37,004 nt of DNA, taken from positions 1 to 37,004 of IMG/VR virus record IMGVR_UViG_3300008448_000277; one strand, written 5' to 3'. The notes beneath the pieces were generated by a model that did not search any database, was not told the DNA's origin, and saw only the letters and a program-made list of their open reading frames with translations. Shown here one piece after another: positions 1-33,955 of the stretch. Source of the DNA: a virus. Position 1 is the stretch's first letter, and each line of letters begins with the position of its first letter. Made by a program: the position numbers and the translations under genes.

Positions 1-114
1 ACTCGTGCGCATTTCCGAGGCTGCAAACTTGCACGAGATGAGCAAGTGGGCGTTCAACGAACGCACCAAGGTGTTGATCGCTGGTTCGCCAGACGTCTGC
101 GCCATCAATCCCAA
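1..114. repeat. Left copy of 114-bp terminal duplication (circular-assembly overlap)
   Basis: Bases 1-114 are identical to 36891-37004. Both copies lie inside the primase-helicase gene, and removing one restores a single open frame across the join. This is what the overlapping ends of a circular or circularly permuted genome look like, giving a unit length of 36,890 bp. A true direct terminal repeat inside a coding region is possible but less likely, because P22-type headful packaging gives permuted ends. Confidence 0.95.
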
Positions 115-709
115 GTACGGACAGAAGTATTCTGTGCGGATGTATTGTGGTGTGATAATCACAACCAACCACCTTGCATCGGGCATCTACATCCCTCCAG
201 ACGACAGGCGTTATGACGTTATCGAAGCATCCACCATGGCGGAGATGCAGTTGGCCAGCGAGGAATCTCGCAGAGCGTACTTCTCCGAGTTGTGGGATTG
301 GTTCTTGGACGGCGGTTCGACGCACGTGGCTGCGTATCTGCACGAACGCGACATTTCCGAATTCAGCGCCAGCAACGGGCAGCGCAAAACCGAAGCGCAC
401 AAGACGGTTGTGGCGGGTGGCATGGCGGGTGACGCTTGGTTGGATGATATTCTGGACGAGCTTGGGCAACCCGTTGCTGTGCGTGCCGATTGGATTATTA
501 CCCGTGCCGTGGCGGTGGGCGAGAAAGAAGCCGATGTGAAGCGCAAGCTGGCCAATTCGATCGGGCGTGTGGGCTACGTTATGTTCAAGAATGTGGCTGT
601 GAAAGACGGGCGTTGGAAAATTAGTGGCAAAAAGGTGACGGTGTACGTTAAGGCTGGAACCCCAGCGAACTACGATCCGACGAAGGATCTGGACAAGGAG
701 ATATTTTGA
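1..709 (+). CDS. PrimPol-helicase, C-terminal part (continues from 35425-37004)
   Basis: This is the C-terminal third of the 724-aa primase-helicase that starts at 35425; the frame runs across the circular join. It holds the rest of the SF3/VirE-like ATPase core. Seen are a Walker B-like segment (VRISEA, residues 491-496 of the whole protein), a sensor-like IITTN stretch and a DDRRYD segment that could supply an arginine finger. The last ~150 residues, ending in a Lys-rich segment, are probably a helical or winged-helix tail. The stop at 707-709 overlaps the ATG of the next gene (ATGA). The part here has no start of its own; an apparent GTG near base 5 is an internal Val codon. Confidence 0.9.
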   Translation, partial: LVRISEAANLHEMSKWAFNERTKVLIAGSPDVCAINPKYGQKYSVRMYCGVIITTNHLASGIYIPPDDRRYDVIEASTMAEMQLASEESRRAYFSELWDWFLDGGSTHVAAYLHERDISEFSASNGQRKTEAHKTVVAGGMAGDAWLDDILDELGQPVAVRADWIITRAVAVGEKEADVKRKLANSIGRVGYVMFKNVAVKDGRWKISGKKVTVYVKAGTPANYDPTKDLDKEIF

Positions 710-16184: not shown

Positions 16185-19100
16185 TGGGAGCCAAAGAATA
16201 TTTCGCCTCTGCATTGCAGAACCCAAATGTGCAAAAGATGCTCGACTTGCTTGGTCACACGGAAGGCACGGACAAGTTGTATGGATACAAAACACTTGTT
16301 GGTGGGAAAAAGGTTGACGATCTTTCTTCTCACCCAAACATCGTGGGTTTGACAACCAAAGATGGTCCGTCAACAGCTTTCGGTCGTTACCAAATTACAG
16401 GAACGACGAATCGTGGCTTGGAAAAACAGTACGGCATCGTTGGGATGTCTCCGCATGCACAAGACTTAAAAGCGGTTGCACTTATGGCGCAGCGCGGCGC
16501 ACTTAAAGACGTCATGAAAGGCGACTTCTCGGGTGCAATAAACAAGCTTGGCAGCGAATGGGCTTCTTTGCCAACGTCAACAACTGCCAATCAGGGACAC
16601 AAGTCGTGGCAAGATGTGCAAAAGTTCTTGGGTGCAAAGCCGACGACGACTTTCTCTGGCGGAACGAAGAATCCAGTTATGCCGTCATACATCGGCGCTG
16701 GCGAATTCCAAACAACTTTCCAACAACAACTTGCAGCGTCACAACCAAGTCCATCTGAACAAATAGCGAATGTTTATCAAGCCTATCAATCTGGCGACAT
16801 GACACCAGAGGAAAAAGCACATTTTGAGCAAGACGTAAAATCTGGAAAGATGATGCTTCCTCGCGGAGCTTCGTTGCAAGAAAGCAGGGCTGCGGATTTT
16901 GCTGCTCCGATTCAGGCGCCACAGGGTGTGCTTAGTGCGTATCAGTCTGGTGAAATGACTCGCCAAGAGAAGATGGACTTCGAGCGCGATGTCGCAGCTG
17001 GCGCGGTTAAGGTTCCACAAGGCTTTCAAATAGAAAAGACAGAGTCGCTTGGTGTTTTTGGCGGAATAAAAGAGGCGTTCACAGGGAACGATCGTCGCAC
17101 CGCTCAAACGGATGCTCTGCCAGACTGGACTGGCATGCCAGAATTGAGCGACTTCTCAAAGGCTGGCTTGAAAACTGGCATTGGCACGATGTTCTCTTCT
17201 CCAGCGGAAACAATCCAAGTAATCAAGGCTAATTATCCTGGAGTCGAAGTAACACAAGACGCAAAAGGCAACTATTTGATGAAGTCTTCCAAAGACGGTC
17301 AAATGTACGCAATAAAACCTGGATTCCAAGTTGGCGACATCCCTCGTGCACTTGGCGGGATTCTTGCATTTACACCAGCTGGTCGTGCAGAAACGATTCT
17401 TGGATCCGCAGCAGGTTCGGCTGCAACGCAAGCAGCGATCGAAGGTTCTCAAGCTGCAACTGGCGGCGAATTTAACACAGGAGAGGTGTTAACTGCAGGT
17501 GCCCTTGGGGCTGCTGTTCCAGCTGCGATAAACACCGTTAAAGCTGTTGCTGCACCTGTTAAAACGGCTATCAATTCAGCCCTTGGGCGTGAGGCTCCAG
17601 TTGCTGCGGAAGCGTTGCAGGCTGGCAAACAGGGTGTTGCTGCGGTTGACCAAAAAATCGCGCAAGCAGCGGACGACGTTCGTGCACCGACACAAACGCC
17701 AGCACCAGAAGTTCCTCAACCTGTGCCAGTCGCACCAATGACTGGGGAAGAGTTGGCGACAACGGCAAGAACAGCAGCGGAAGGCGGTTTTGGAAGTAAA
17801 AAAGCAACGCAAATCCTTGCTGAACAAGCTGCTCCAGACATTAAAACTGTTGACGCTGCAAAGCGTCTTGGGATTGAAGACTTCTTGCAACCTGACCACG
17901 TCACAACCAATCAGGCTTATCGCGAGTTGTCTCAGGCTGTTAAATCAATTCCTGGATCCGAAGCGCGTGCTGCAGAAATGCAAGGTCTTGAGCAAATTGG
18001 CAAGCGTGCAAACAACCTAATTGACGACATTGGCGGAACAACAGACCTAAGTACACTGGATGTGAATATAAAATCCGCCATGCGCTCAACACAACAAGAG
18101 TTGGAAGGAAAAGCGAACCAACTTTACGGGCAGTTGCGCGAATCCATTCCTGCCAAAGCTGAAGCACCCGCTCCGAATGTGCTCAACTTTATCGCCAAGC
18201 GTGCAGACGAACTCGGTGGTGCAGAAAACCTTTCCCCGATGGAACGCACCATCATGAAGAAGCTGTCGCCACGGGGTGATGGCCAAGCTGCAGTGTCGCA
18301 ACCACTTGAATCGATGAATGTTGGCGGGGTTAAGTTCTCTGAGCTTCCACCAAACATCCAACAACAAATCCAAAGCAAACTTGGAGGTGCGATAGAATCT
18401 CCTGTTGTTGCAAAACAACCGACTTACGCCCTGCTTGACGATGTTCGTCGAGACCTGACTGCAGCACGCATCAAGGGTCAAGGCGCGTTCAAAGATGCTG
18501 ATGCTGGACTTATTAAGAAGTTGGAATTCGAGTTGAAAAAAGACCAAGCTGCTGTTGTAGAACAACACGGCATGGGCGATGTTTTCAAGGCTGCTCAATC
18601 GGCTGTTGCGATTCGCAAGGGCTTGGAAGACGACATGATTTCGTTGTTCGGCAAGGAAATGGACAAGTCTATAACGCCCGCAGTCAGCGGTGCTGTAAAG
18701 GCTCTTCCTGCTGGCGATGCATCTAAGTTCATCAAGCTAATCAAGTCTGTGCCAGAAGAAATGCGCCAACAAGTCGTTGCAAGCGGATTGTCAACAGCAT
18801 TTGGGAAACAAACCCAAAATGGCGCTTTGAATTTCAACACATATGCAAATTGGTACGAAGGATTGTTAAAAAACAAACAGTCTTACACAGCGGTGATGTC
18901 AAATCTTCCAGCTGGTGCACGCAAACAGTTGAGCGATCTGTATCGCGTTTCCAAAGGCGTTTCGGCAGCAACCAAAGAACGAATTACAACGGGTCGTATT
19001 CAAGCCGTGGCTGAACAACTAAAAGGTGCTGACAATCTTGTGAGCAATATTTACGGGTTAGCCAAACGCGCTTCCGCTGGCGTTGCGGCTGAAGCAATAA

Positions 19101-21941: not shown

Positions 21942-22431
21942 AACAACGCTCATTGCTTTGGCGATCGGCTTTGCGCTTGGTGCGCTTCCTGCTTGGCATT
22001 TCACTGCAAAGTATAAAGATGCTTCGTGGACCGCATCAATCGAAAAGCAAAAGGTGGAAGCTGCCAAACAACTCAAAGACGCAACGGATCGCGCACTCGC
22101 TGCGGAACGGCTGCAAAACGATTTATCAACCAAACTGGAGATATTACATGTTGAAACAAATAAAAAGCTCAATGGCGTTCTTTCTGATAACCGCAAGTTG
22201 TCTGCTGAGCTTGGCGGGTTGCGCGACCCAGGACGTAGGTCGAGTTGTACAAACACCGTGTCCTCCAACTCCTCAGCCCCCAGCAATCCTAAAGACACAA
22301 CCTCCGACAGCCGACTTTCAGATGAGGCTTCGAACTTTCTTCTTGAGTTCGCCAGAGACGCAGATTCAGCAGCAGAATATGCAAAAACCTGCCACGACTG
22401 GGCAGAAGAACTAGGCAAGCTGCCTAAATAG
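21925..22431 (+). CDS. Rz-like inner-membrane spanin
   Basis: This 168-aa i-spanin has an N-terminal membrane anchor (residues 8-25, TLIALAIGFALGALPAWH) followed by a long periplasmic coiled coil (WTASIEKQKVEAAKQLKDAT and on). It overlaps the previous gene by 17 bp. With the lipoprotein encoded inside it in another frame, it would fuse inner and outer membranes in the last step of lysis. An i-spanin argues for a Gram-negative host. Confidence 0.88.
   Translation: MLFNLRTTLIALAIGFALGALPAWHFTAKYKDASWTASIEKQKVEAAKQLKDATDRALAAERLQNDLSTKLEILHVETNKKLNGVLSDNRKLSAELGGLRDPGRRSSCTNTVSSNSSAPSNPKDTTSDSRLSDEASNFLLEFARDADSAAEYAKTCHDWAEELGKLPK
22148..22414 (+). CDS. Rz1-like outer-membrane spanin lipoprotein, embedded in Rz
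   Basis: This 88-aa protein lies wholly inside the Rz gene in the +1 frame, the classic embedded Rz/Rz1 layout. It has a lipoprotein signal: a basic start (MLKQIKSS), a hydrophobic stretch (MAFFLITASCLLSLAGC) and a lipobox LAGC at residues 22-25. A Pro-rich segment (PCPPTPQPPAILKTQPPT) follows, as in lambda Rz1. ATG 22148 was chosen because it opens the signal peptide, with CTGGAGATATTAC upstream as ribosome-binding site. Confidence 0.88.
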   Translation: MLKQIKSSMAFFLITASCLLSLAGCATQDVGRVVQTPCPPTPQPPAILKTQPPTADFQMRLRTFFLSSPETQIQQQNMQKPATTGQKN

Positions 22432-22961: not shown

Positions 22962-23182
22962 TTGAAGAACTCCTTCTTAATCTCTTTCTGTGCGCCAGAA
23001 GATGCTTGAACAGGCAAGCCCTGAACGTCGCGCATTGCTGCGTAGTCAGGATTGTTTTTTACTTTGAACCAAGACTTGTCAGAGCACACCAAAACTTGTG
23101 AGCCATCGACAAGCTCTTTGTGAATGGTAAACACCCCGTCTTTGTGGTCAATTTTCAACAGCACCGCGTTGTCGTCTTTCAT
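22958..23182 (-). CDS. Unknown small protein, 74 aa
   Basis: No family is recognised. The 74-aa product is beta-rich (AVLLKIDHKDGVFTIHKEL, SQVLVCSDKSWFKVKN) with a basic C-terminus. It starts at ATG 23182, directly downstream of the leader motif AACTCAGAAAGGAAG shared with four other genes. It overlaps the 58-aa gene by 4 bp and is the first gene of the three-gene cluster. Confidence 0.75.
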   Translation of the reverse strand: MKDDNAVLLKIDHKDGVFTIHKELVDGSQVLVCSDKSWFKVKNNPDYAAMRDVQGLPVQASSGAQKEIKKEFFK

Positions 23183-23188
23183 GTCAAC

Positions 23189-23202
23189 TTCCTTTCTGAG
23201 TT
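23189..23202 (-). promoter_or_regulatory. Shared 5' leader with ribosome-binding site (copy 1)
   Basis: Reads AACTCAGAAAGGAA on the minus strand, seven bases before the ATG at 23182. The same block precedes the starts at 31920, 32428, 33418 (minus) and 33957 (plus). The GAAAGGA core is the ribosome-binding site; conservation of the extra AACTCA suggests a translational enhancer or regulator site. Confidence 0.7.
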
Positions 23203-23227
23203 ATCCGATCTTTCAGACCGTATTGCA

Positions 23228-23256
23228 ATTATGCCTTGGTTTTTGCAAAAAGGCAA
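23228..23256 (-). promoter_or_regulatory. Predicted leftward promoter for the small-gene cluster
   Basis: On the minus strand: TTGCCT (23251-23256), 17 bases, CATAAT (23228-23233). It matches the other five promoters. It lies between the small-gene cluster and the symmetric repeat at 23281-23380. Confidence 0.72.
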
Positions 23257-23280
23257 CAAATTTACAAAATATTTTAAGGT

Positions 23281-23380
23281 GACCGTGTTCGACCGTGTTG
23301 CTATCTCTCCTAACCCTTTAATTATATTACGATATTTTATTTATAGGATAAGAGAGAAGTAGACACGGCCACACACGGTC
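23281..23380. repeat. Symmetric 100-bp structure with paired 10-bp iterons; candidate replication origin
   Basis: Left arm: two tandem 10-bp units GACCGTGTTC and GACCGTGTTG (23281-23300). Right arm, reverse complement of 23361-23380: GACCGTGTGT and GGCCGTGTCT. Both arms continue inward with CT-rich stretches (CTCTCCTAACCC; CTCTCTTATCC on the other strand) and meet in an AT-only centre (about 23314-23345). The whole is nearly symmetric about 23330. The right arm includes the stop codon of the helicase gene. An origin or initiator-binding site is inferred. Confidence 0.6.
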
Positions 23381-24905
23381 AGCCGAACATCGAAAGCCCC
23401 TTATCAATGATTGTGGATGCAATGTCTTGCTTGGCGGTGAGTGCTCTGATGACGTGTTCGTCGATCGTGCCTTTGGCAGCGATGTTGATGTAGGTCACGT
23501 TTTTCTTCTGACCAATGCGGTGTGCACGGTCTTCTGATTGCAGACGATCGCGCAACGAGAAGTTGTTGCTGAAATAAATGACATAACTCGCAGCGACAAG
23601 GGTGATCCCCGTTCCACCCGCTTGTTGGTTTCCGACAAACACCTGCGCACTTCCCCGTTCGAAGGATTCGATCGCCTTGGTGCGGTCTGATGAAGACACC
23701 CCGCCATGGTATTCAACGCTTTCGATCTTCTCTGCTTTCAGCCGCGCAACGATGTCTTCGATTTCGATGCGGTACCTTGCCCAGATGATGATCTTCTCTC
23801 CGCTTTCTACGATGGTTTTAACACGTTCTACAAGGAGATCCAACTTTGGGTTGTCGCCTTCTATTCGCACAGGCTCTTCCGACATCGGATGGATGTAATA
23901 TCCGCTTGTTATCTGAGCCAACTTGGTGAATGCTGCCAACTTGTTGAAAGGCGTTTCCTCGCCTTCGAAAACCAAGCGGCATTCTTTCTCTGCCTTTTTG
24001 TACACATCAATCTGCTGGCGAGTCATGCTGAACACAAGTGTTTTGTAGATCTTTTCTGGCAGGTCCAAGCAGTCTTTCTTGAGGACACGGAAGCTGTGTG
24101 GTGCGATTAGACTGCTCAACTTCTCCAAGTTTCTGTACTTCGGTCTTCCTCCAACACCCTTTGCGACAACCTGCGGGGTGCGATTCGTGCCGCTGCGCTG
24201 TTTGATTGCGCTCAGCAATGGGTTTCCTTCCTGAAGCATTTCCGCATATTCTGCTTTGAAAGCATAATAGCTTGATGTTCCAAGGATGTGTTCATCCAAG
24301 AAACTAAATTGGCTAAAAGCATCGAAAGGCGAGTTGTTGATTGGTGTTCCACTCATGATTCTGCGCCAATAGCTTAGGCTTCTCAGCTTCATCAGATTCT
24401 TGGTGCGCAATGCACTTGGATTTTTGTAAGCGTCAGACTCGTCCGCAACGACCATCGAGCGTCTTGATCCAAGCAGGAATTTGTAAGCGAACTCGAATCC
24501 CTTTTTCGTTTGCAAGGCTTCGTGGTTCATCGTAAGAATGCGCAACACTCCATTGATTGGTGTGTCGAAAAGACCGTCCAAGTCTTCTTTTTCCTGTTTG
24601 TTTTGCGAAGAAGACCAAGCAGCGGACTTGTAGCGAACCCAGTCTGGCATGTGCTTTGGCAACTCCATACGAGTCCAGTTTGTGTGCACACCATTCGGTG
24701 CAAGAACGAGAACCGCGTCGCAGTCGTTCGAAGACCAAAGATCAGCGACATTGTTGATGATGATCCAAGTCTTGCCAGTGCCCATCTCGGCAAGCAAAGC
24801 GAAAGCCTTGCTCCTGCCGTGCTTGGTCAAACAATCCATCTGATGGCGATAGGGCGTTGTTTTGAATTTGCTCATCGTTTCAGAGCGTTGCGAAGATGTT
24901 TCCAT
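23379..24905 (-). CDS. SNF2-type SF2 helicase
   Basis: This 508-aa helicase has Walker A (EMGTGKT, residues 40-46), a Walker B/motif II DESD (155-158), motif III SGTPINN, and the C-terminal helicase part with QSEDRAHRIGQ (motif VI), typical of the SNF2/Rad54-like branch. Phage members of this branch serve in replication, recombination or restart. The ATG at 24905 follows AAGGAG by eight bases; an internal ATG (residue 11) has no such site. The start overlaps the nuclease gene by 34 bp, so the two are probably translated together. Confidence 0.93.
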   Translation of the reverse strand: METSSQRSETMSKFKTTPYRHQMDCLTKHGRSKAFALLAEMGTGKTWIIINNVADLWSSNDCDAVLVLAPNGVHTNWTRMELPKHMPDWVRYKSAAWSSSQNKQEKEDLDGLFDTPINGVLRILTMNHEALQTKKGFEFAYKFLLGSRRSMVVADESDAYKNPSALRTKNLMKLRSLSYWRRIMSGTPINNSPFDAFSQFSFLDEHILGTSSYYAFKAEYAEMLQEGNPLLSAIKQRSGTNRTPQVVAKGVGGRPKYRNLEKLSSLIAPHSFRVLKKDCLDLPEKIYKTLVFSMTRQQIDVYKKAEKECRLVFEGEETPFNKLAAFTKLAQITSGYYIHPMSEEPVRIEGDNPKLDLLVERVKTIVESGEKIIIWARYRIEIEDIVARLKAEKIESVEYHGGVSSSDRTKAIESFERGSAQVFVGNQQAGGTGITLVAASYVIYFSNNFSLRDRLQSEDRAHRIGQKKNVTYINIAAKGTIDEHVIRALTAKQDIASTIIDKGLSMFG

Positions 24906-25300
24906 TGTTCTTTCTCCTTAATTGGTTTCGTTGTGCACCAAGTGCATTGTTCAATCAGTTCGTCTACGGTCATGTTGTTTATCGAGTCTGCGTGCACCCC
25001 AGAAATTAAGATCCATCGCTTGTCAGTAACAATCAGAAAATAGCCTTTGCCACCAGCCTTTCTATGGCGCAAGAACCAATTCATTTGCGACTGCGACACC
25101 CTGTGGTTTGATCCGAATAACGGTGTCGTCGCTCTGACAGGTTCTTTCGGTGATTTCTGCTCTATCCAAACCTCCGTGCCTTCGATGCAAGCGTTTATGT
25201 CTGGCATCCCATCAACAACAACATTTTCCACCCTGTCTATCCTGTCCCTTGGCTCAGGGACATTTTTGCGAAATAGCTTGTAATCTGCTGACTCAGACAT
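24872..25300 (-). CDS. VRR-NUC-like PD-(D/E)XK nuclease
   Basis: This 142-aa protein resembles VRR-NUC or Holliday-junction-resolvase-like phage nucleases: GMPDIN (active-site Asp), EVWIEQKSP (the E-x-K-like strand) and SQSQMNWFLRHRKAGGKGYFLI (the QxxW/L helix after the active site) occur in the expected order. It may cut branched or structured DNA during replication and packaging. It overlaps the polymerase gene by 8 bp and the helicase gene by 34 bp. Confidence 0.82.
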   Translation of the reverse strand: MSESADYKLFRKNVPEPRDRIDRVENVVVDGMPDINACIEGTEVWIEQKSPKEPVRATTPLFGSNHRVSQSQMNWFLRHRKAGGKGYFLIVTDKRWILISGVHADSINNMTVDELIEQCTWCTTKPIKEKEQWKHLRNALKR

Positions 25301-28055
25301 CTAGTCGTCTCCACTTTGTTATGAAAGCATATCGAATGCCGTTGAAGAACTTCGCACGCACAAGCAGGTGAGCGCCAACGGGCGTTTTCTCAAGCAACTC
25401 TTTGCCGATGCGTGCATAATCGAATCGCCCAATGCGACCGCCAATCATGTCCGTGTCGTCGCGCAACCGCACATCAACAAAGTCCAATGGACCAGTTTCC
25501 ATCTTTCCGTTGCGCTTCTTGACATTCACCTCTTCGTTTGCGTTACGGGCGTTCTTTTGGATCAATTCTGCAATGAACACACGCTCTTCTTTGTGTGGGA
25601 TTCCTTCTCGCAAGTCAACAACATCCCATATCTTGCCAGCAATTCCGTGGGCAATTGGATCTTCGTACAGATGTTGGTATTTGGCGTGCATCGGGAAGAT
25701 TTCTGCGAAGATGTTTTCAGCTTTCTCGACATCTGCAATCTGCTTGGCGGTCAAGGTTCCAGCATCACGGGCTGCGATCAGCTTTGCAGCTTTGTTTTCG
25801 CCAATGCCTTTCAAAGCCGTGAACCCGCCATACAACTTCCCGTCTTGAGCAGACCAATTTTCAAGTGACTTTGTGATGTCGAACGGGATGTACTCAATTC
25901 CCTCACGCGACATTTCACGAAGCAACTCAATTGCACTGTCTTCGTCTTTGGCGTTGCGCAGATTCGCAGCTGCAAACTCCAGCGGGTGGTGCGCTTTCAA
26001 GTAAGCAGTCCAATAGCTGATAACCGCATAGCTGTACGTGTGCGCCTTGTTCATCTGCCAAGCACCCATCGCATTGATAAGCTCCCAAACTTCCCGTGCG
26101 GATTCTTCTGGGATGTCTTGCGACGTTGCACCCTCCAAGAATGGAGGTAAAAACTTCTGGAAGAACTCAACACCTTGACGCTTGGAGATCGCCTTGCGCA
26201 CGAACGATGTTTCGTCCCAGCCGAACTTGCCAATATCGCGAACAATCGCAAGGGTGTGCTCTTGGTACAACGGCAAACCGTATGTGTCAGCCATAATCGC
26301 CTCAACACGCGGATGCAATGGCTTGTAGCTTTCTCCATTGTGGCGTGCAATGTACTTCTGCACGACGCCAGAACCGAATGGACCAGGACGAGCCAACGCT
26401 GTAACAGCGTCAATTTGCGTCAAGTCTTCAAAGTGGATCTGTGTACTAATTTGGCGCAGGGCGTTTCCTTCGAATTGGAAAATACCGCACATGCGTCCTT
26501 GGTTGAAAACATCGTATGTCGCAGGATCGTCGAACGGTAGGTTGTACCAGTCAATATCAACACGGCAATCTTCAAGCACACCAAGCGTGCGCAAGCCCAA
26601 AACGTCGATCTTCAACAACCCAACCGACTCAGCAGAGTATTTGTCCACGTGCGCAATGCCATTCCCGTCAACCGTGCAATAGTTGATGATTTCGTCATTA
26701 CAAACCAACAACCCCGCTGCATGAACGCCCGTGTGCGACGCATGACCTTCCAGCAGCATTGCGGATATTGCTTGTGGATATTGCTTGATGAATTCGCGTC
26801 CTGGATCTGTCTCTTTCAGTGTGTCTTCCAAGCAGTTGTTTGCACGCGAGTCCGCCATCCCACGCTCAATCATCGCAACCTTTACCGCACCAGTCGCTGC
26901 AGGAGGAATGTTTAGGGCTTTGCAAACTTGGATCAATGCGGAACGGGGCTTAAACTGGCTGACTGTCCCGATATGGGCGACGTTCATCTGGCCATACTTT
27001 TCAGCCATATAATCGAACACCATTTTTCGCTTGTCGTCTGGGAAGTCCAAGTCAATATCGGGCAAGTCCGTGCGACTCACGTCGATGAATCGTTCGAAGA
27101 ACAACTTCGGAGGAATTGGGTCAATCTCCGTGATGCGTGCCGTGTAGCAAACCAACGAACCCGCTGCTGAACCACGACTTGGACCAACCAACATGTGTTT
27201 CTTTGCATAGTGAACCATGTCCGCAACGATGATGAAGTAGGACTCGAAGTCTTTGCTGCGTATTAGGTTTAGTTCGTATTGCAAGCGATCTTCGTATTCC
27301 TGCGTCCAACGGCTTTCCATTCCACGCAGTTTGATGCCTTCTCTGCAAATTGATTCCAAGTCTCCTTCTGCACGGATCATTGGGGCGTGCGGCAATTCCA
27401 AGTCCTTGCAAAGATCCGCAATTTCCTGCGCAACGTCTTGGTGTTTAAGTTCTTCCAAAATCCATTGGGGCGTTGCTTTCAAAGAACTGCGAGAGGCGAA
27501 CTCGTACGCATCTTTGTCCTCTTTGTAGGAATAATTGTTGTCCGACGTCTCAACAACTTTCAATCCCATTTTGGCAGCGACAGACAACTTGCGTGCGTTC
27601 AATATCCTGCTGGATGGGTTTGTGTCGATGTAAGCGCCAACCTCTGCCAAGAAGTTTTCGTCCGTCAAATCGCCAGCGAACTTGAGGATGTTTTCTGACA
27701 TATTGACAACGTCTTTCTTGTACAATCTTGGGACGCTGCCTTGGCGTGTTGCAATGGGCTGTAGGTGCGATTTAGACGTCGCTCTGTATAATTCGCTCAA
27801 CCCTTGTTTATTTCTCGCTATGAACCACATCTTGTGTGTTAGATCGTCGTCGCTGACGACAACCGAAACGCCAAGCATCGGCTGGATCCCTTCTTTCTTG
27901 CAAGCATTGAACCAATTGATGTGCCCCCAAGTGCTGTCTTCGTCAACGATCGCAGCTGCAGAGCACCCAAGCTCTTTGAGCCTTTTTACAACCCTGCTGA
28001 TTGGAGCAAAGGTTTGCCCGAATGTGTATTCGGTTCTGATTCGTAGTTGTATCAT
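25293..28055 (-). CDS. Family C (DnaE-type) DNA polymerase
   Basis: This 920-aa protein is a DNA polymerase III alpha-type enzyme. Visible: the palm motif GPSRGSAAGS (291-300), the two catalytic Asp in PDIDLDF (332-338), the third Asp in LLKIDVLGLRTL (D484) and a helix-hairpin-helix (GFTALKGIGENKAAKL). The N-terminal PHP domain is kept in outline, but its metal ligands are lost (HxH reads RTE, the TDH-like motif reads VDED), so no proofreading is expected from it. It is shorter than E. coli DnaE (1160 aa) and lacks room for the C-terminal tau-binding domain. Proofreading is probably supplied by the DnaQ-like gene nearby. It overlaps both neighbours. Confidence 0.96.
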   Translation of the reverse strand: MIQLRIRTEYTFGQTFAPISRVVKRLKELGCSAAAIVDEDSTWGHINWFNACKKEGIQPMLGVSVVVSDDDLTHKMWFIARNKQGLSELYRATSKSHLQPIATRQGSVPRLYKKDVVNMSENILKFAGDLTDENFLAEVGAYIDTNPSSRILNARKLSVAAKMGLKVVETSDNNYSYKEDKDAYEFASRSSLKATPQWILEELKHQDVAQEIADLCKDLELPHAPMIRAEGDLESICREGIKLRGMESRWTQEYEDRLQYELNLIRSKDFESYFIIVADMVHYAKKHMLVGPSRGSAAGSLVCYTARITEIDPIPPKLFFERFIDVSRTDLPDIDLDFPDDKRKMVFDYMAEKYGQMNVAHIGTVSQFKPRSALIQVCKALNIPPAATGAVKVAMIERGMADSRANNCLEDTLKETDPGREFIKQYPQAISAMLLEGHASHTGVHAAGLLVCNDEIINYCTVDGNGIAHVDKYSAESVGLLKIDVLGLRTLGVLEDCRVDIDWYNLPFDDPATYDVFNQGRMCGIFQFEGNALRQISTQIHFEDLTQIDAVTALARPGPFGSGVVQKYIARHNGESYKPLHPRVEAIMADTYGLPLYQEHTLAIVRDIGKFGWDETSFVRKAISKRQGVEFFQKFLPPFLEGATSQDIPEESAREVWELINAMGAWQMNKAHTYSYAVISYWTAYLKAHHPLEFAAANLRNAKDEDSAIELLREMSREGIEYIPFDITKSLENWSAQDGKLYGGFTALKGIGENKAAKLIAARDAGTLTAKQIADVEKAENIFAEIFPMHAKYQHLYEDPIAHGIAGKIWDVVDLREGIPHKEERVFIAELIQKNARNANEEVNVKKRNGKMETGPLDFVDVRLRDDTDMIGGRIGRFDYARIGKELLEKTPVGAHLLVRAKFFNGIRYAFITKWRRLDV

Positions 28056-28327
28056 GTGTATACCTTTATTTCGTTACAATGGACGAATTCCTGCCAAGCT
28101 GGGCATTCTTCCGTGCGTTCTTGGCCAACATAAACTTCGCAATAAGGAATGTCTTCTGTCGTGTTAAGGTTGTTGCAATTTCGACAAGACCAACCTCCAT
28201 AATGCGACTCCCATTGTTGATCGACGATGTTGCTTCCGTTACACCTGCCTCCGCCAAACCTATGCGGGAATCCGTAGGCTCCACAGTTGCAGGTGTACTC
28301 ACCTTTGCGTTGTTTACGCTTGCCCAT
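28052..28327 (-). CDS. Cys-rich, probably zinc-binding protein, 91 aa
   Basis: This protein has nine Cys and several His (C13, C15, C29, C48, C51, C63, C75, C84 and others) in the order CNCGAYGFPHRFGGGRC ... WSCRNCNN ... YCEVYVGQE. I recognise the CGAYxFPHRFGGGxCxG pattern as a common small phage family of unknown role. It overlaps DnaQ by 14 bp and DnaE by 4 bp, so a place in the replication complex is plausible. There is no strong ribosome-binding site, so it may depend on coupling. Confidence 0.78.
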   Translation of the reverse strand: MGKRKQRKGEYTCNCGAYGFPHRFGGGRCNGSNIVDQQWESHYGGWSCRNCNNLNTTEDIPYCEVYVGQERTEECPAWQEFVHCNEIKVYT

Positions 28328-28859
28328 TCAACTGCTCAAAAAAGTTGTCTGTTTTCAGGACTTCGTAAAGCGCAAGCACATCGTCCAAGGCTCTGTGCGT
28401 TTGAGCCAGCGGTTTGCCAACGACTTTTTCGTACAACTGCGTCAACTTCGGGCGACGACCGAACATCGGTGTGTACTCCTGCACCGTGCAGATCGTTGTT
28501 TCTGGCCAAACAAAGTCTTCGCACCCAGCACGCAGCAAGTCGTTCTTCAGCATGCCAGAGTCGAACGGGGCATTGTGGCAAATGAGCATTGTGGCACCTT
28601 CGAAAAAGGCTTTCAGCTGCGGAAGATATTCTGAGAATGTTGGTTTGCCAACCAGATCTTCATTCTTGATGCCAGTGATTTTGGTTATTTGTGCTGATAT
28701 TTCTTCGTTGGGATTCAGCAGCTGCGACAACTCTGCGACAACCCCAGTTTCATCAACGACAATCGCACCCAATTCAATTATTTTCGGTTGCTTGGAGACG
28801 TCTGCAGAAGAGGGAAGCAACAGCCCCGTTGTTTCTGTGTCGAATATGATTGCTCTCAT
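28314..28859 (-). CDS. DnaQ-like 3'-5' exonuclease (epsilon-type, DEDDh)
   Basis: This 181-aa exonuclease has all three Exo motifs: FDTETTG (D7, E9), HNAPFD (D100) and THRALDD (H155, D160), giving the DEDDh class. It probably serves as the proofreading subunit for the DnaE-type polymerase encoded just downstream. The polymerase's own PHP domain looks inactive. It overlaps the DUF6378-like gene by 4 bp and the Cys-rich gene by 14 bp. Confidence 0.93.
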   Translation of the reverse strand: MRAIIFDTETTGLLLPSSADVSKQPKIIELGAIVVDETGVVAELSQLLNPNEEISAQITKITGIKNEDLVGKPTFSEYLPQLKAFFEGATMLICHNAPFDSGMLKNDLLRAGCEDFVWPETTICTVQEYTPMFGRRPKLTQLYEKVVGKPLAQTHRALDDVLALYEVLKTDNFFEQLNGQA

Positions 28860-29158
28860 TTTTGTTCTCCTTCTGGTGAATCGGGAAGCATCAACCCATT
28901 GAGCATCGACATATAAACCGCTGCGTCGTGCGCTGAATCTTCGTGTTGTAAGTTTGTGTTGGCCAAGCGTGTCGCCTTAATCATCGACATCAAGAACAGG
29001 TGCCACTTGTTGTGGTCGTCTGCGGTCTTCAGCGTCACGCCATTTGGAAACATTTCCGCCATCACATTGCCGATGATGAGGTAATTGTTGCCATAAACCT
29101 TTGCACGCTCTTTGAATGTTGCGAGCATTTGTTCCATTACTTTGTCTGCTGTTTGCAT
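28856..29158 (-). CDS. Small phage protein resembling DUF6378, 100 aa
   Basis: This 100-aa protein has the sequence KVYGNNYLIIGNVMAEMFP followed by a helix-rich part and HEDSAHDAAVYMSML, matching a widespread phage family that I tentatively place with DUF6378. The role is unknown; the D-rich HEDS..D motif is reminiscent of small helical nucleotide-binding proteins such as MazG-like enzymes. I chose ATG 29158 behind AAAGGT; the longer frame to 29272 runs back into the HAD gene. Confidence 0.75.
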   Translation of the reverse strand: MQTADKVMEQMLATFKERAKVYGNNYLIIGNVMAEMFPNGVTLKTADDHNKWHLFLMSMIKATRLANTNLQHEDSAHDAAVYMSMLNGLMLPDSPEGEQK

Positions 29159-29160
29159 GA

Positions 29161-29631
29161 TTAAACCTTTGGTGCTGTGTAAGCACAAACATTGTGGATT
29201 GAACGGACTTTGGCTGGTATGCCGTGGTCCAAGTACATTTGAACGACATCTGGACGATCGTCGTAGGCGCAAACCACCTTGCTCATGTCGACATCATACA
29301 GATTGGCCAGCCAACCTAGTTGCTTGCTCTTCAGCTCCACGGACGGGCAATGGTCGTTGTTGTTGCGCATCACAAGCGAGTGGTAATTGATGTGTTGACG
29401 CTTCAACCATTCCGCAGTAAGTGCAGAGTAATGCACGGGGCGTGCTGTCAGGATGATGATTTCATGCGAATGGTTTTTGAACAAGTCCTTGTTGCCAGCT
29501 TTGTCAAATCCGCTCAACGAATGGTATTCGTGGTAACGTTCGAGCGGATCTGTCTTTTGCCAATTGATGTTGGCGATGCGCCAGCTGTCGTCTGCGATGC
29601 AGTTGTCGAGGTCAAGAATAACGTAGCTCAT
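29161..29631 (-). CDS. HAD-superfamily phosphatase, polynucleotide-phosphatase-like
   Basis: This 156-aa protein has the HAD signature motifs: DLDNCIADD (nucleophile D7 and D9), TARP (motif II, T62), K101 and AYDDRPDVV (motif IV, D124/D125). The short cap and the sequence DDRPDVV resemble the 3'-phosphatase domain of T4 polynucleotide kinase and 5'-nucleotidases. The substrate could be a nucleotide or a DNA/RNA end. It overlaps the ThyX gene by 4 bp. Confidence 0.85.
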   Translation of the reverse strand: MSYVILDLDNCIADDSWRIANINWQKTDPLERYHEYHSLSGFDKAGNKDLFKNHSHEIIILTARPVHYSALTAEWLKRQHINYHSLVMRNNNDHCPSVELKSKQLGWLANLYDVDMSKVVCAYDDRPDVVQMYLDHGIPAKVRSIHNVCAYTAPKV

Positions 29632-30715: not shown

Positions 30716-31920
30716 AATGGATCCCCAGTTAATTGCTCACCCAATGAGCAGATTTTGTCAAACAAATAATTTTGCATCGAACGAGAACAGTCTGAAAATC
30801 CTTCGTCCAGATGCAAAAACTCTTCATAGATTGCCGCTGCAACCTGCTTCGTGCCTTGCAAGAAAAGGCGTTTGGCGAGAAAGCACTTGTCGTTTTCAGC
30901 CAAGCCAAGAACCCCTCCTCCAAGCGAATCTACAACGACAATCGGGTGTCCAGAAACATCAACACCAAGAACATTTTTCACAAAGGCTTTTGCAGCTTCC
31001 AGTTGCTTCACCTCAACAGCGTTCAACTCTGACTGAACGATGTCCTCTGCTTTTTCACAGAACTTGTTGTAAAGTGCAATCATTGATTGATTCGCTGCAT
31101 CAGATTTGTCAAACGAAAACTTCGCAACAACCTGCATAAAAGCGTCTGACGGTTGGAAGCCAACGTCCGAGAAGTCTAAGTCGCTTTCAAGAAAGTCTGG
31201 TCCTGCAAACAAAACACTTTCGATGATGGATTGGTCTTGGCAAGCAGCAATCGATTCTTTCAGGGCGTCCGTGAAATAGAAGTTGTATTTCAAAGTTCTG
31301 TCTTCAGTCAGCTCGACTTTGTTCGTTATGTTGTATGTGAACAAGGTGTATTTGCGGAGATCTTGAACACGTACACCTCGATAGAAAACGCTTGTGGAAT
31401 GACCGCTGTGAACGTCCACCTTGTTCAAGCTTGTCACGATTGGAACTTCCAAGAAAACATTGCTTTTGTTTTTGAATGCTTCGTGAAAATCTTCCCCGTC
31501 AACAATCACAGCCGTGCCATCTTCGACTGCTGGATCTGACTCGCTTTCTTCGCACGAACCGCCTTCGTCAAGCATGTTGGAATAGATTTCGCGGAAAGCA
31601 TTCTCGACACTCCAATTCTTGCCGAGTTCTGTGGTGAACCCTAGCTCTTGATGCTTCTCTTCACCACGCGGGTTGCGGGTGACCATGCAAACCAAGCGGA
31701 ATTCTTCGCCCCTGATGGTTGTGTCCTCTGCGATAAAAGAATATTCTTCTCCGTTGGAAAGGATCTTAATGCTGATGTTGTTGCGAACCAACACGGCTAT
31801 TGCATACTTCAACCCCGTTCCAAAGTAGCCGATTGGCGAATTTGTTTCCTTGGCGGAAACGCCAAATGTGGTTATAGAACGCGGGTCTATTGACGCCTTG
31901 TTTCTGAATATGACTTTCAT
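30712..31920 (-). CDS. GHKL-type ATPase-like protein, 402 aa
   Basis: The ATP-binding features are of the gyrase/Hsp90/histidine-kinase fold: FGVSAKETNSPIGYFGTGLKYAIAVL (residues 19-44), with the G2-box-like GYFGTGLK, and AFREIYSNMLDEGG (108-121), which looks like the N-box helix (E-x3-N-x2-D). The order is G2 first and N-box second, the reverse of normal GHKL proteins. The C-terminus has AAIYEEFLHLDEGFSD, which could be an HExxH-like remnant. Similar proteins occur in other phages but their role is unknown. ATG 31920 follows the shared leader. Confidence 0.75.
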   Translation of the reverse strand: MKVIFRNKASIDPRSITTFGVSAKETNSPIGYFGTGLKYAIAVLVRNNISIKILSNGEEYSFIAEDTTIRGEEFRLVCMVTRNPRGEEKHQELGFTTELGKNWSVENAFREIYSNMLDEGGSCEESESDPAVEDGTAVIVDGEDFHEAFKNKSNVFLEVPIVTSLNKVDVHSGHSTSVFYRGVRVQDLRKYTLFTYNITNKVELTEDRTLKYNFYFTDALKESIAACQDQSIIESVLFAGPDFLESDLDFSDVGFQPSDAFMQVVAKFSFDKSDAANQSMIALYNKFCEKAEDIVQSELNAVEVKQLEAAKAFVKNVLGVDVSGHPIVVVDSLGGGVLGLAENDKCFLAKRLFLQGTKQVAAAIYEEFLHLDEGFSDCSRSMQNYLFDKICSLGEQLTGDPL

Positions 31921-31927
31921 AATAATT

Positions 31928-31941
31928 TTCCTTTCTGAGTT
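31928..31941 (-). promoter_or_regulatory. Shared 5' leader with ribosome-binding site (copy 2)
   Basis: AACTCAGAAAGGAA on the minus strand, in front of the GHKL-like ATPase ATG (31920), identical to the copies at 33426 and 33936. Confidence 0.72.
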
Positions 31942-31978: not shown

Positions 31979-32428
31979 TTAAACAGCAAGTTCTTCTTGC
32001 TTTACAACATTGAACACGAACGATTCGCCTTCGTGTTCGAATGTCGCTTCGCCATCTTTCTTCAATTGCGCACGGAAGTCGATGTGCTTGCTCATCGGCA
32101 AGCCAAGTTTCTTGAAAGCTGATGCGACTGAACGGTAGATGCCGTATTCGCCCACAGACACATTCGTGCGGACTGCACGCGATGTCGCGATTTCTTTGTT
32201 GGTCCAAGTTGCTGCGGTTGCTGCACTGCGGGTTGGGTCTGTTGCTTTCTGTTCCTGCTTTTCCATTTTCGGTTCCTCAACTGGTTGGGTTGGTTGCTGC
32301 GCGATGCGGGCTGCTAACAATTGCTCTTCGCCTTTGGCGCGGCTGGCGAACTTGCTTGTGTTCTTGCCAGTCAAAGAGTTGTACTCTGCCAACATCTCTG
32401 CAGTTGTCATGTCTGATACTTGTTTCAT
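31979..32428 (-). CDS. Unknown protein, 149 aa
   Basis: The N-terminus (MTTAEMLAEYNSLTGKNTSKFASRAKGEEQL) follows a pattern seen in many phage proteins (TTxEL..YN....KF.DR..AE). It is followed by a Gln/Pro-rich linker (RIAQQPTQPVEEPKMEKQEQKATD) and a C-terminal domain (SVGEYGIYRSVASAFKKLGLPMSKHIDFRAQ). The linker separates two small domains, probably DNA- or protein-binding. I chose ATG 32428, eight bases after GAAAGG; a GTG at 32437 lies inside that leader. Confidence 0.78.
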   Translation of the reverse strand: MKQVSDMTTAEMLAEYNSLTGKNTSKFASRAKGEEQLLAARIAQQPTQPVEEPKMEKQEQKATDPTRSAATAATWTNKEIATSRAVRTNVSVGEYGIYRSVASAFKKLGLPMSKHIDFRAQLKKDGEATFEHEGESFVFNVVKQEELAV

Positions 32429-32436
32429 GTTAATCA

Positions 32437-32448
32437 CCTTTCTGAGTT
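32437..32448 (-). promoter_or_regulatory. Shared 5' leader (copy 3, slightly changed)
   Basis: AACTCAGAAAGG on the minus strand, followed by TGATTAAC before the ATG at 32428. The block is kept except for the two A after GG. Confidence 0.68.
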
Positions 32449-32473
32449 AGTCCAGCGTTTGTTGCTGTAAGAG

Positions 32474-33418: not shown

Positions 33419-33425
33419 AACAATT

Positions 33426-33439
33426 TTCCTTTCTGAGTT
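33426..33439 (-). promoter_or_regulatory. Shared 5' leader with ribosome-binding site (copy 4)
   Basis: AACTCAGAAAGGAA on the minus strand before the oxidoreductase ATG (33418). Confidence 0.72.
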
Positions 33440-33451
33440 GATTGAACCATA

Positions 33452-33480: not shown

Positions 33481-33508
33481 CAGTTTTATAAAATATTTTT
33501 AAAAATAG

Positions 33509-33537
33509 TTGCTTTTCCTGAAAAATTGGCGGATAAT
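33509..33537 (+). promoter_or_regulatory. Predicted rightward promoter of the early/middle operon
   Basis: TTGCTT (33509-33514), 17 bases, GATAAT (33532-33537), followed by TCG. It lies 53 bases before the first rightward ATG (33590). Confidence 0.77.
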
Positions 33538-33589
33538 TCGTTCCAAGTCCAGTCTGTCCGATTGGACTTTGTGAAAGGAAAACTTAGAA

Positions 33590-33934: not shown

Positions 33935-33935
33935 C

Positions 33936-33949
33936 AACTCAGAAAGGAA
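33936..33949 (+). promoter_or_regulatory. Shared 5' leader with ribosome-binding site (copy 5)
   Basis: AACTCAGAAAGGAA on the plus strand before ATG 33956, the only rightward copy of the block. Finding it on both strands suggests a functional element, not a local duplication. Confidence 0.72.
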
Positions 33950-33955
33950 AATTGT

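Follow-up and report, generated by a model that had tools for sequence, protein, structure and literature searches.

Does a phage whose replication gene lies elsewhere begin DNA copying at the 3' end of a helicase gene? This question is raised by a 102-bp dyad at positions 23280–23381 of a 37,004-base IMG/VR virus record, the whole of which is called the window here. Two tandem 10-bp units of the form GRCCGTGTnn oppose two inverted ones about a common centre. The outer and inner unit pairs are both symmetric about 23330.5, unit starts are spaced exactly 10 bp apart on the left and right sides alike, and the outer arms reach the full 102 bp (23280–23381) once the flanking T/A is included. An earlier note, made from the letters of the sequence, had described a nearly symmetric structure of about 100 bp with paired 10-bp iterons and a right arm that takes in the helicase stop codon. 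Both observations were confirmed, with 2 + 2 units on a single axis and the stop codon within the outermost right unit. The centre, which had been called AT-only, is AT-rich (AT fraction 0.80 across the central 44 bp) but carries a CG dinucleotide on the axis at 23330–23331. The parts of the dyad and its adjoining features are as follows.

23280–23381, no strand: whole inverted-iteron dyad, predicted origin, the P1 copy (from the dyad/tandem score and simulations)
23281–23288, plus strand: outer left unit GACCGTGT; the 10-bp repeat GACCGTGTTC occupies 23281–23290
23291–23298, plus strand: inner left unit GACCGTGT; the 10-bp repeat GACCGTGTTG occupies 23291–23300
23301–23317, plus strand: CT-rich left inner arm, pairing with the purine-rich right inner arm
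23318–23346, no strand: AT-rich centre, presumed to melt, with CG on the axis
23347–23360, plus strand: purine-rich right inner arm
23363–23370, minus strand: inner right unit GGCCGTGT, inverted
23373–23380, minus strand: outer right unit GACCGTGT, inverted, overlapping the SNF2 helicase stop codon
23379–24905, minus strand: gene of the SNF2-family helicase, with the dyad at its 3' end
23228–23256, minus strand: sigma-70-like promoter (TTGCCT-17-CATAAT) adjoining the dyad

The dyad is real and stands far above chance. Its score, which combines dyad and tandem repeat, is 16.4, against a maximum of 13.9 in simulations (0/300 local-Markov whole genomes reached 16.4). None of 200,000 shuffles of the 102-bp sequence contained 2 + 2 units, and four of the five GRCCGTGT occurrences in the 37-kb genome fall within the dyad. 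A search of Rfam with the element returned no match. As a single strand, the dyad folds with z-scores of –6.3 as DNA and –8.3 as RNA. The strong RNA fold, and a location flanked by the helicase stop and a promoter-like site, could point to transcription control, with the dyad acting as a long hairpin terminator or as a regulator site that insulates the adjoining promoter from helicase transcription. However, there is no T-run terminator, the element of one relative (G006) sits between divergent genes, and the unit sequence is conserved beyond what pairing demands and tracks the Prim-Pol winged helix described below. We regard transcription control as quite improbable.

The promoter block beside the dyad (23227–23276) recurs in similar, inverted form at 33489–33538, and a leader of near-identical sequence (AACTCAGAAAGGAAA...) stands ahead of several genes (33420–33440 and 33935–33955, also 23177–23203, 31915–31941 and 32423–32449). 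By their sequence, the leaders and the recurring block suggest a repeated promoter-leader cassette. The 920-aa gene near the dyad (25293–28055, minus strand), which had been taken for the Prim-Pol–helicase, encodes a DnaE-type polymerase; this 37-kb phage has its own DnaE-type polymerase together with a polymerase exonuclease subunit (28314–28859, minus strand). The Prim-Pol–helicase is instead encoded by the gene that spans the record ends, which carry a 114-bp repeat, so that the record reads as circular. GC skew, which the earlier note had named as a check, decides nothing: the cumulative minimum lies at 33.47 kb, away from the dyad, and the maximum at 22.25 kb, and both are uninformative on the origin because they coincide with switches in gene direction.

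We drew relatives of the SNF2 helicase from IMG/VR and collected further same-arm elements by pattern search. The window and its relatives, nine records in all, hold a single GGCCGTGTG-type element each (9/9), which is an inverted pair in every case. The iteron arms are conserved at the window's site in two phages with helicases 83% (L013) and 81% (L091) identical to that of the window. Other same-arm elements lie upstream of terS (L094, L104, L120 and, with another terminase, G002) or near the Pam3_gp32 gene (G006 and G007), and the site at the helicase 3' end is empty in L001–L010. Such variable positions and empty sites, like the TGG...CCA ends of the element, would fit a MITE-like miniature element, mobile among the intergenic sites of phages and bounded by terminal inverted repeats. 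This explanation is extremely improbable, given that each record holds a single copy, no target-site duplication was seen by eye, pattern matches in a scan of GTDB bacterial genomes all lack the AT-rich centre, and arm sequence tracks the class of the replication protein. Cultured phages and plasmids, searched at the DNA level, yielded nothing related to the element.

The positions upstream of terS also raise the possibility that the element is a packaging site, pac or cos, to which the small subunit of the terminase would bind. In many relatives the dyad immediately precedes terS, about 440–650 nt ahead of terL, and in one relative an HNH-like gene adjoins the element. Against this, the same-arm records have related replication genes and different terminases: the large terminase of the window has no match in G002 or G007 and is 45% identical in G006, and yet the GGCCGTGTG arms are kept. 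TerS was rejected as the dyad binder on these grounds. Moreover, about 15 kb separate the window element from terS, and the same build occurs in pRN1, a plasmid without a terminase. A packaging site is therefore very unlikely.

The candidate binder is a 724-aa Prim-Pol/SF3-helicase/winged-helix protein, whose gene starts at about 35425 and crosses the record ends. We read its domains from an aligned close homolog (L165, in G002), which contains Prim-Pol (PF09250) and SF3 (DUF5906) domains and matches PriCT-2 weakly. A structure model predicts a winged helix for the C-terminal domain (pLDDT 78), and Foldseek comparison with the PDB returned many winged-helix regulators, all below significance (best E 0.34). 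The relevant features, including a second dyad discussed below, are these.

5–709, plus strand: C-terminal part of the Prim-Pol/SF3-helicase/winged-helix protein
527–568, plus strand: recognition helix EADVKRKLANSIGR, as predicted for the C-terminal winged helix
908–1273, plus strand: 121-aa winged-helix protein standing on its own, paralogous to the C-terminal domain of the Prim-Pol protein (model pLDDT 85)
1401–1514, no strand: second AT-centred dyad, 114 bp, with AAATCCCCGTGAAA arms and weak tandem units, the P2 copy

Just downstream (3') of the Prim-Pol gene, 14 of 24 relatives (L357, L358, L364–L374 and L376) encode the winged-helix domain a further time as a separate protein of about 100–120 aa, and the idea that the paralog is specific to the window and G001 was dropped. 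One relative (L364) has two such paralogs. By analogy with P4 Cnr, which is a regulator, the paralog is possibly a copy-number regulator. A 138-aa ORF (28856–29272) had been considered as the iteron binder, being 34% identical in G026 and 51–72% elsewhere. It was dropped because its best family match, a weak one, is DUF6378, which we take to be a MazG-like family.

Searching with a covariance model built on the GGCCGTGTG element gave few matches among other relatives because the arms differ by clade, and we therefore used a sequence-blind dyad scan instead. Many phages that share related large terminases have an AT-centred dyad ahead of terS, and its arms are clade-specific (CTATGCT, CTGTAG/CTACAG or AACCCGAG). 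Of the 24 relatives of the Prim-Pol protein examined, almost every one whose sequence extends far enough 3' has an AT-centred dyad with lineage-specific arms, for the most part at +30 to +2500 bp from the primase stop. With motif cores that were picked after inspecting the arms, and in counts that ignore shared descent, at least two CGTGT cores occur in 9/9 elements paired with the helix class ADV[KR]RKL..IGR.GY versus 0/7 for other helices (Fisher 9e-5), and RRACKT cores occur in 4/6 elements of a second class, [GS]D[VI]KRK..SM.R, versus 0/10 of the rest. At the level of sequence, the arms track the predicted recognition helix of the Prim-Pol winged helix.

The CTACAG-type relatives also have a separate TGTC...GACA hairpin of 73–90 bp near the terS-side dyad, with arms that vary but match; Rfam gave no convincing match for these hairpins.

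L267, 5901–5990: TGTC...GACA hairpin
G043, 22238–22327: TGTC...GACA hairpin
G045, 17686–17758: TGTC...GACA hairpin

The earlier note knew of no named phage origin with this build, but precedents exist in the stem-loop of BPP-1-type phages (PMC4234260) and in the origins of PICIs (PMC6092414). Replication of pRN1, a Sulfolobus islandicus plasmid, depends on a 100-nt stem-loop that follows its Prim-Pol/SF3/winged-helix gene on the 3' side and also works when displaced; its authors described it without iteron structure, could not identify the sequence that the replication protein binds there, and suggested that BPP-1-type phages likewise have a stem-loop origin (PMC4234260). In pRN1 DNA we found two tandem TGTCCA units per arm, at a 9-bp lag, opposing two inverted ones, with a similar arrangement in pRN2. 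These tandem units had gone unreported by the pRN1 authors. Like the pRN1 element, the window dyad is about 100 bp long, with arms of about 20 bp, an AT-rich middle and two tandem units per arm, and its genome likewise encodes a Prim-Pol protein with an SF3 helicase and a C-terminal winged helix, the last predicted in the window. The two differ in unit sequence and lag and in host replicon, pRN1 being an archaeal plasmid, and also in place: the pRN1 element lies directly 3' of the replication gene, a location that is typical of this type but not required, whereas the window dyad is at 23.3 kb and the Prim-Pol gene ends at 709.

Bordetella phage BPP-1 has a 104-bp dyad of 2 + 2 TGCCTCGTT units between primase and terS. 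The pRN1 paper places the BPP-1 stem-loop at the primase 3' end, and it may differ from this dyad (PMC4234260). BPP-1/BIP-1 resembles the window as a Prim-Pol/PriCT_2/SF3 phage with two tandem units per arm; its unit sequence is another, and its dyad is still near the primase. The pRN1 protein matches the SF3 family PF19263, and among cultured phages with this family the dyad scan placed BPP-1, Mae-JY02 (a Microcystis phage; dyad 128 bp 3' of the primase), R9Y3, J2, Asa16, Lilbooboo and Shawty above their own null. Armstrong, Dismas, Adonis and IME-EFm5 were marginal, and K289, iEPS5 and JCL1032 showed no such dyad against their own null. Two inverted-iteron dyad copies, several kb apart, were observed in Microbacterium phage Armstrong (W11, L283), Arthrobacter phage Asa16 (W21, L334) and Streptomyces phages Lilbooboo (W12, L284) and Shawty (W24, L337).

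Two further systems were compared by description only. PICI origins, including those of SaPIs, consist of two iteron sets flanking an AT-rich region, as in the window, and PICIs have a primase and an initiator that are sometimes fused (PMC6092414). They differ in being satellites with the origin immediately 3' of the initiator gene; the window phage has its own terminase and structural-size genes, and its element lies at the helicase end. Phage P4 alpha is a multifunctional primase-helicase whose C-terminal winged-helix domain binds origin repeats (PMC4234260). The window protein shares the primase-helicase with a (predicted) C-terminal winged helix, but P4 alpha has a Toprim primase and the window protein a Prim-Pol domain, PF09250.

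Several points count against reading the window dyad as an origin. Roughly 14 kb separate it from the Prim-Pol gene, and the usual origin place, 3' of the Prim-Pol gene and upstream of terS, holds the second dyad (1401–1514). The skew minimum, though confounded with gene direction, is elsewhere, such a dyad is missing from K289, iEPS5 and JCL1032, the Foldseek matches of the winged helix fall short of significance, and the helix-iteron counts carry the limits given above. The second dyad scores 14.7, below the 16.4 of the 23280–23381 dyad, and it is the latter that contains the units matching the Prim-Pol helix class. We infer that the 23280–23381 copy, more than the 1401–1514 copy, is active as the origin.

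Together, these results make four initiator sites around a melting region, as the earlier note had proposed, the best-supported reading: the build is that of the proven pRN1 origin, of BPP-1 and of other Prim-Pol/SF3 phages, and almost all relatives of the Prim-Pol protein carry AT-centred dyads. The 102-bp dyad is very probably a place where the phage begins DNA copying. As an origin it is of a known kind, here duplicated and moved from beside the replication gene to the 3' terminus of the SNF2 helicase gene. The C-terminal winged-helix domain of the Prim-Pol protein would bind the four GRCCGTGTnn units, two per side and on the same helix face. SF3 hexamers would then assemble as two opposed rings and open the AT-rich centre, the Prim-Pol domain would prime bidirectional synthesis, and the phage's own DnaE-type polymerase would extend the primed strands. 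We infer each of these steps, from binding through SF3 loading, melting and priming to DnaE extension, and consider it likely that the dyad is an origin bound by this winged helix, with opposed SF3 rings and bidirectional synthesis.

Few origins of Prim-Pol phages are known, and the dyad provides a concrete, testable candidate with a named putative binder. One design links three origins that have been described apart, namely the pRN1 stem-loop, the BPP-1 stem-loop and the iteron origins of PICIs. More tentatively, inverted pairs of tandem 9–10-bp iterons around an AT-rich core may be the common origin design of Prim-Pol/SF3/winged-helix replicons, from phages and satellites to archaeal plasmids, with a readable helix-iteron code; in this phage the design would be duplicated and relocated, with its copies split between the Prim-Pol protein and the winged-helix paralog. 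The pairing of helix and iteron offers a sequence-based prediction of origins and of origin compatibility.
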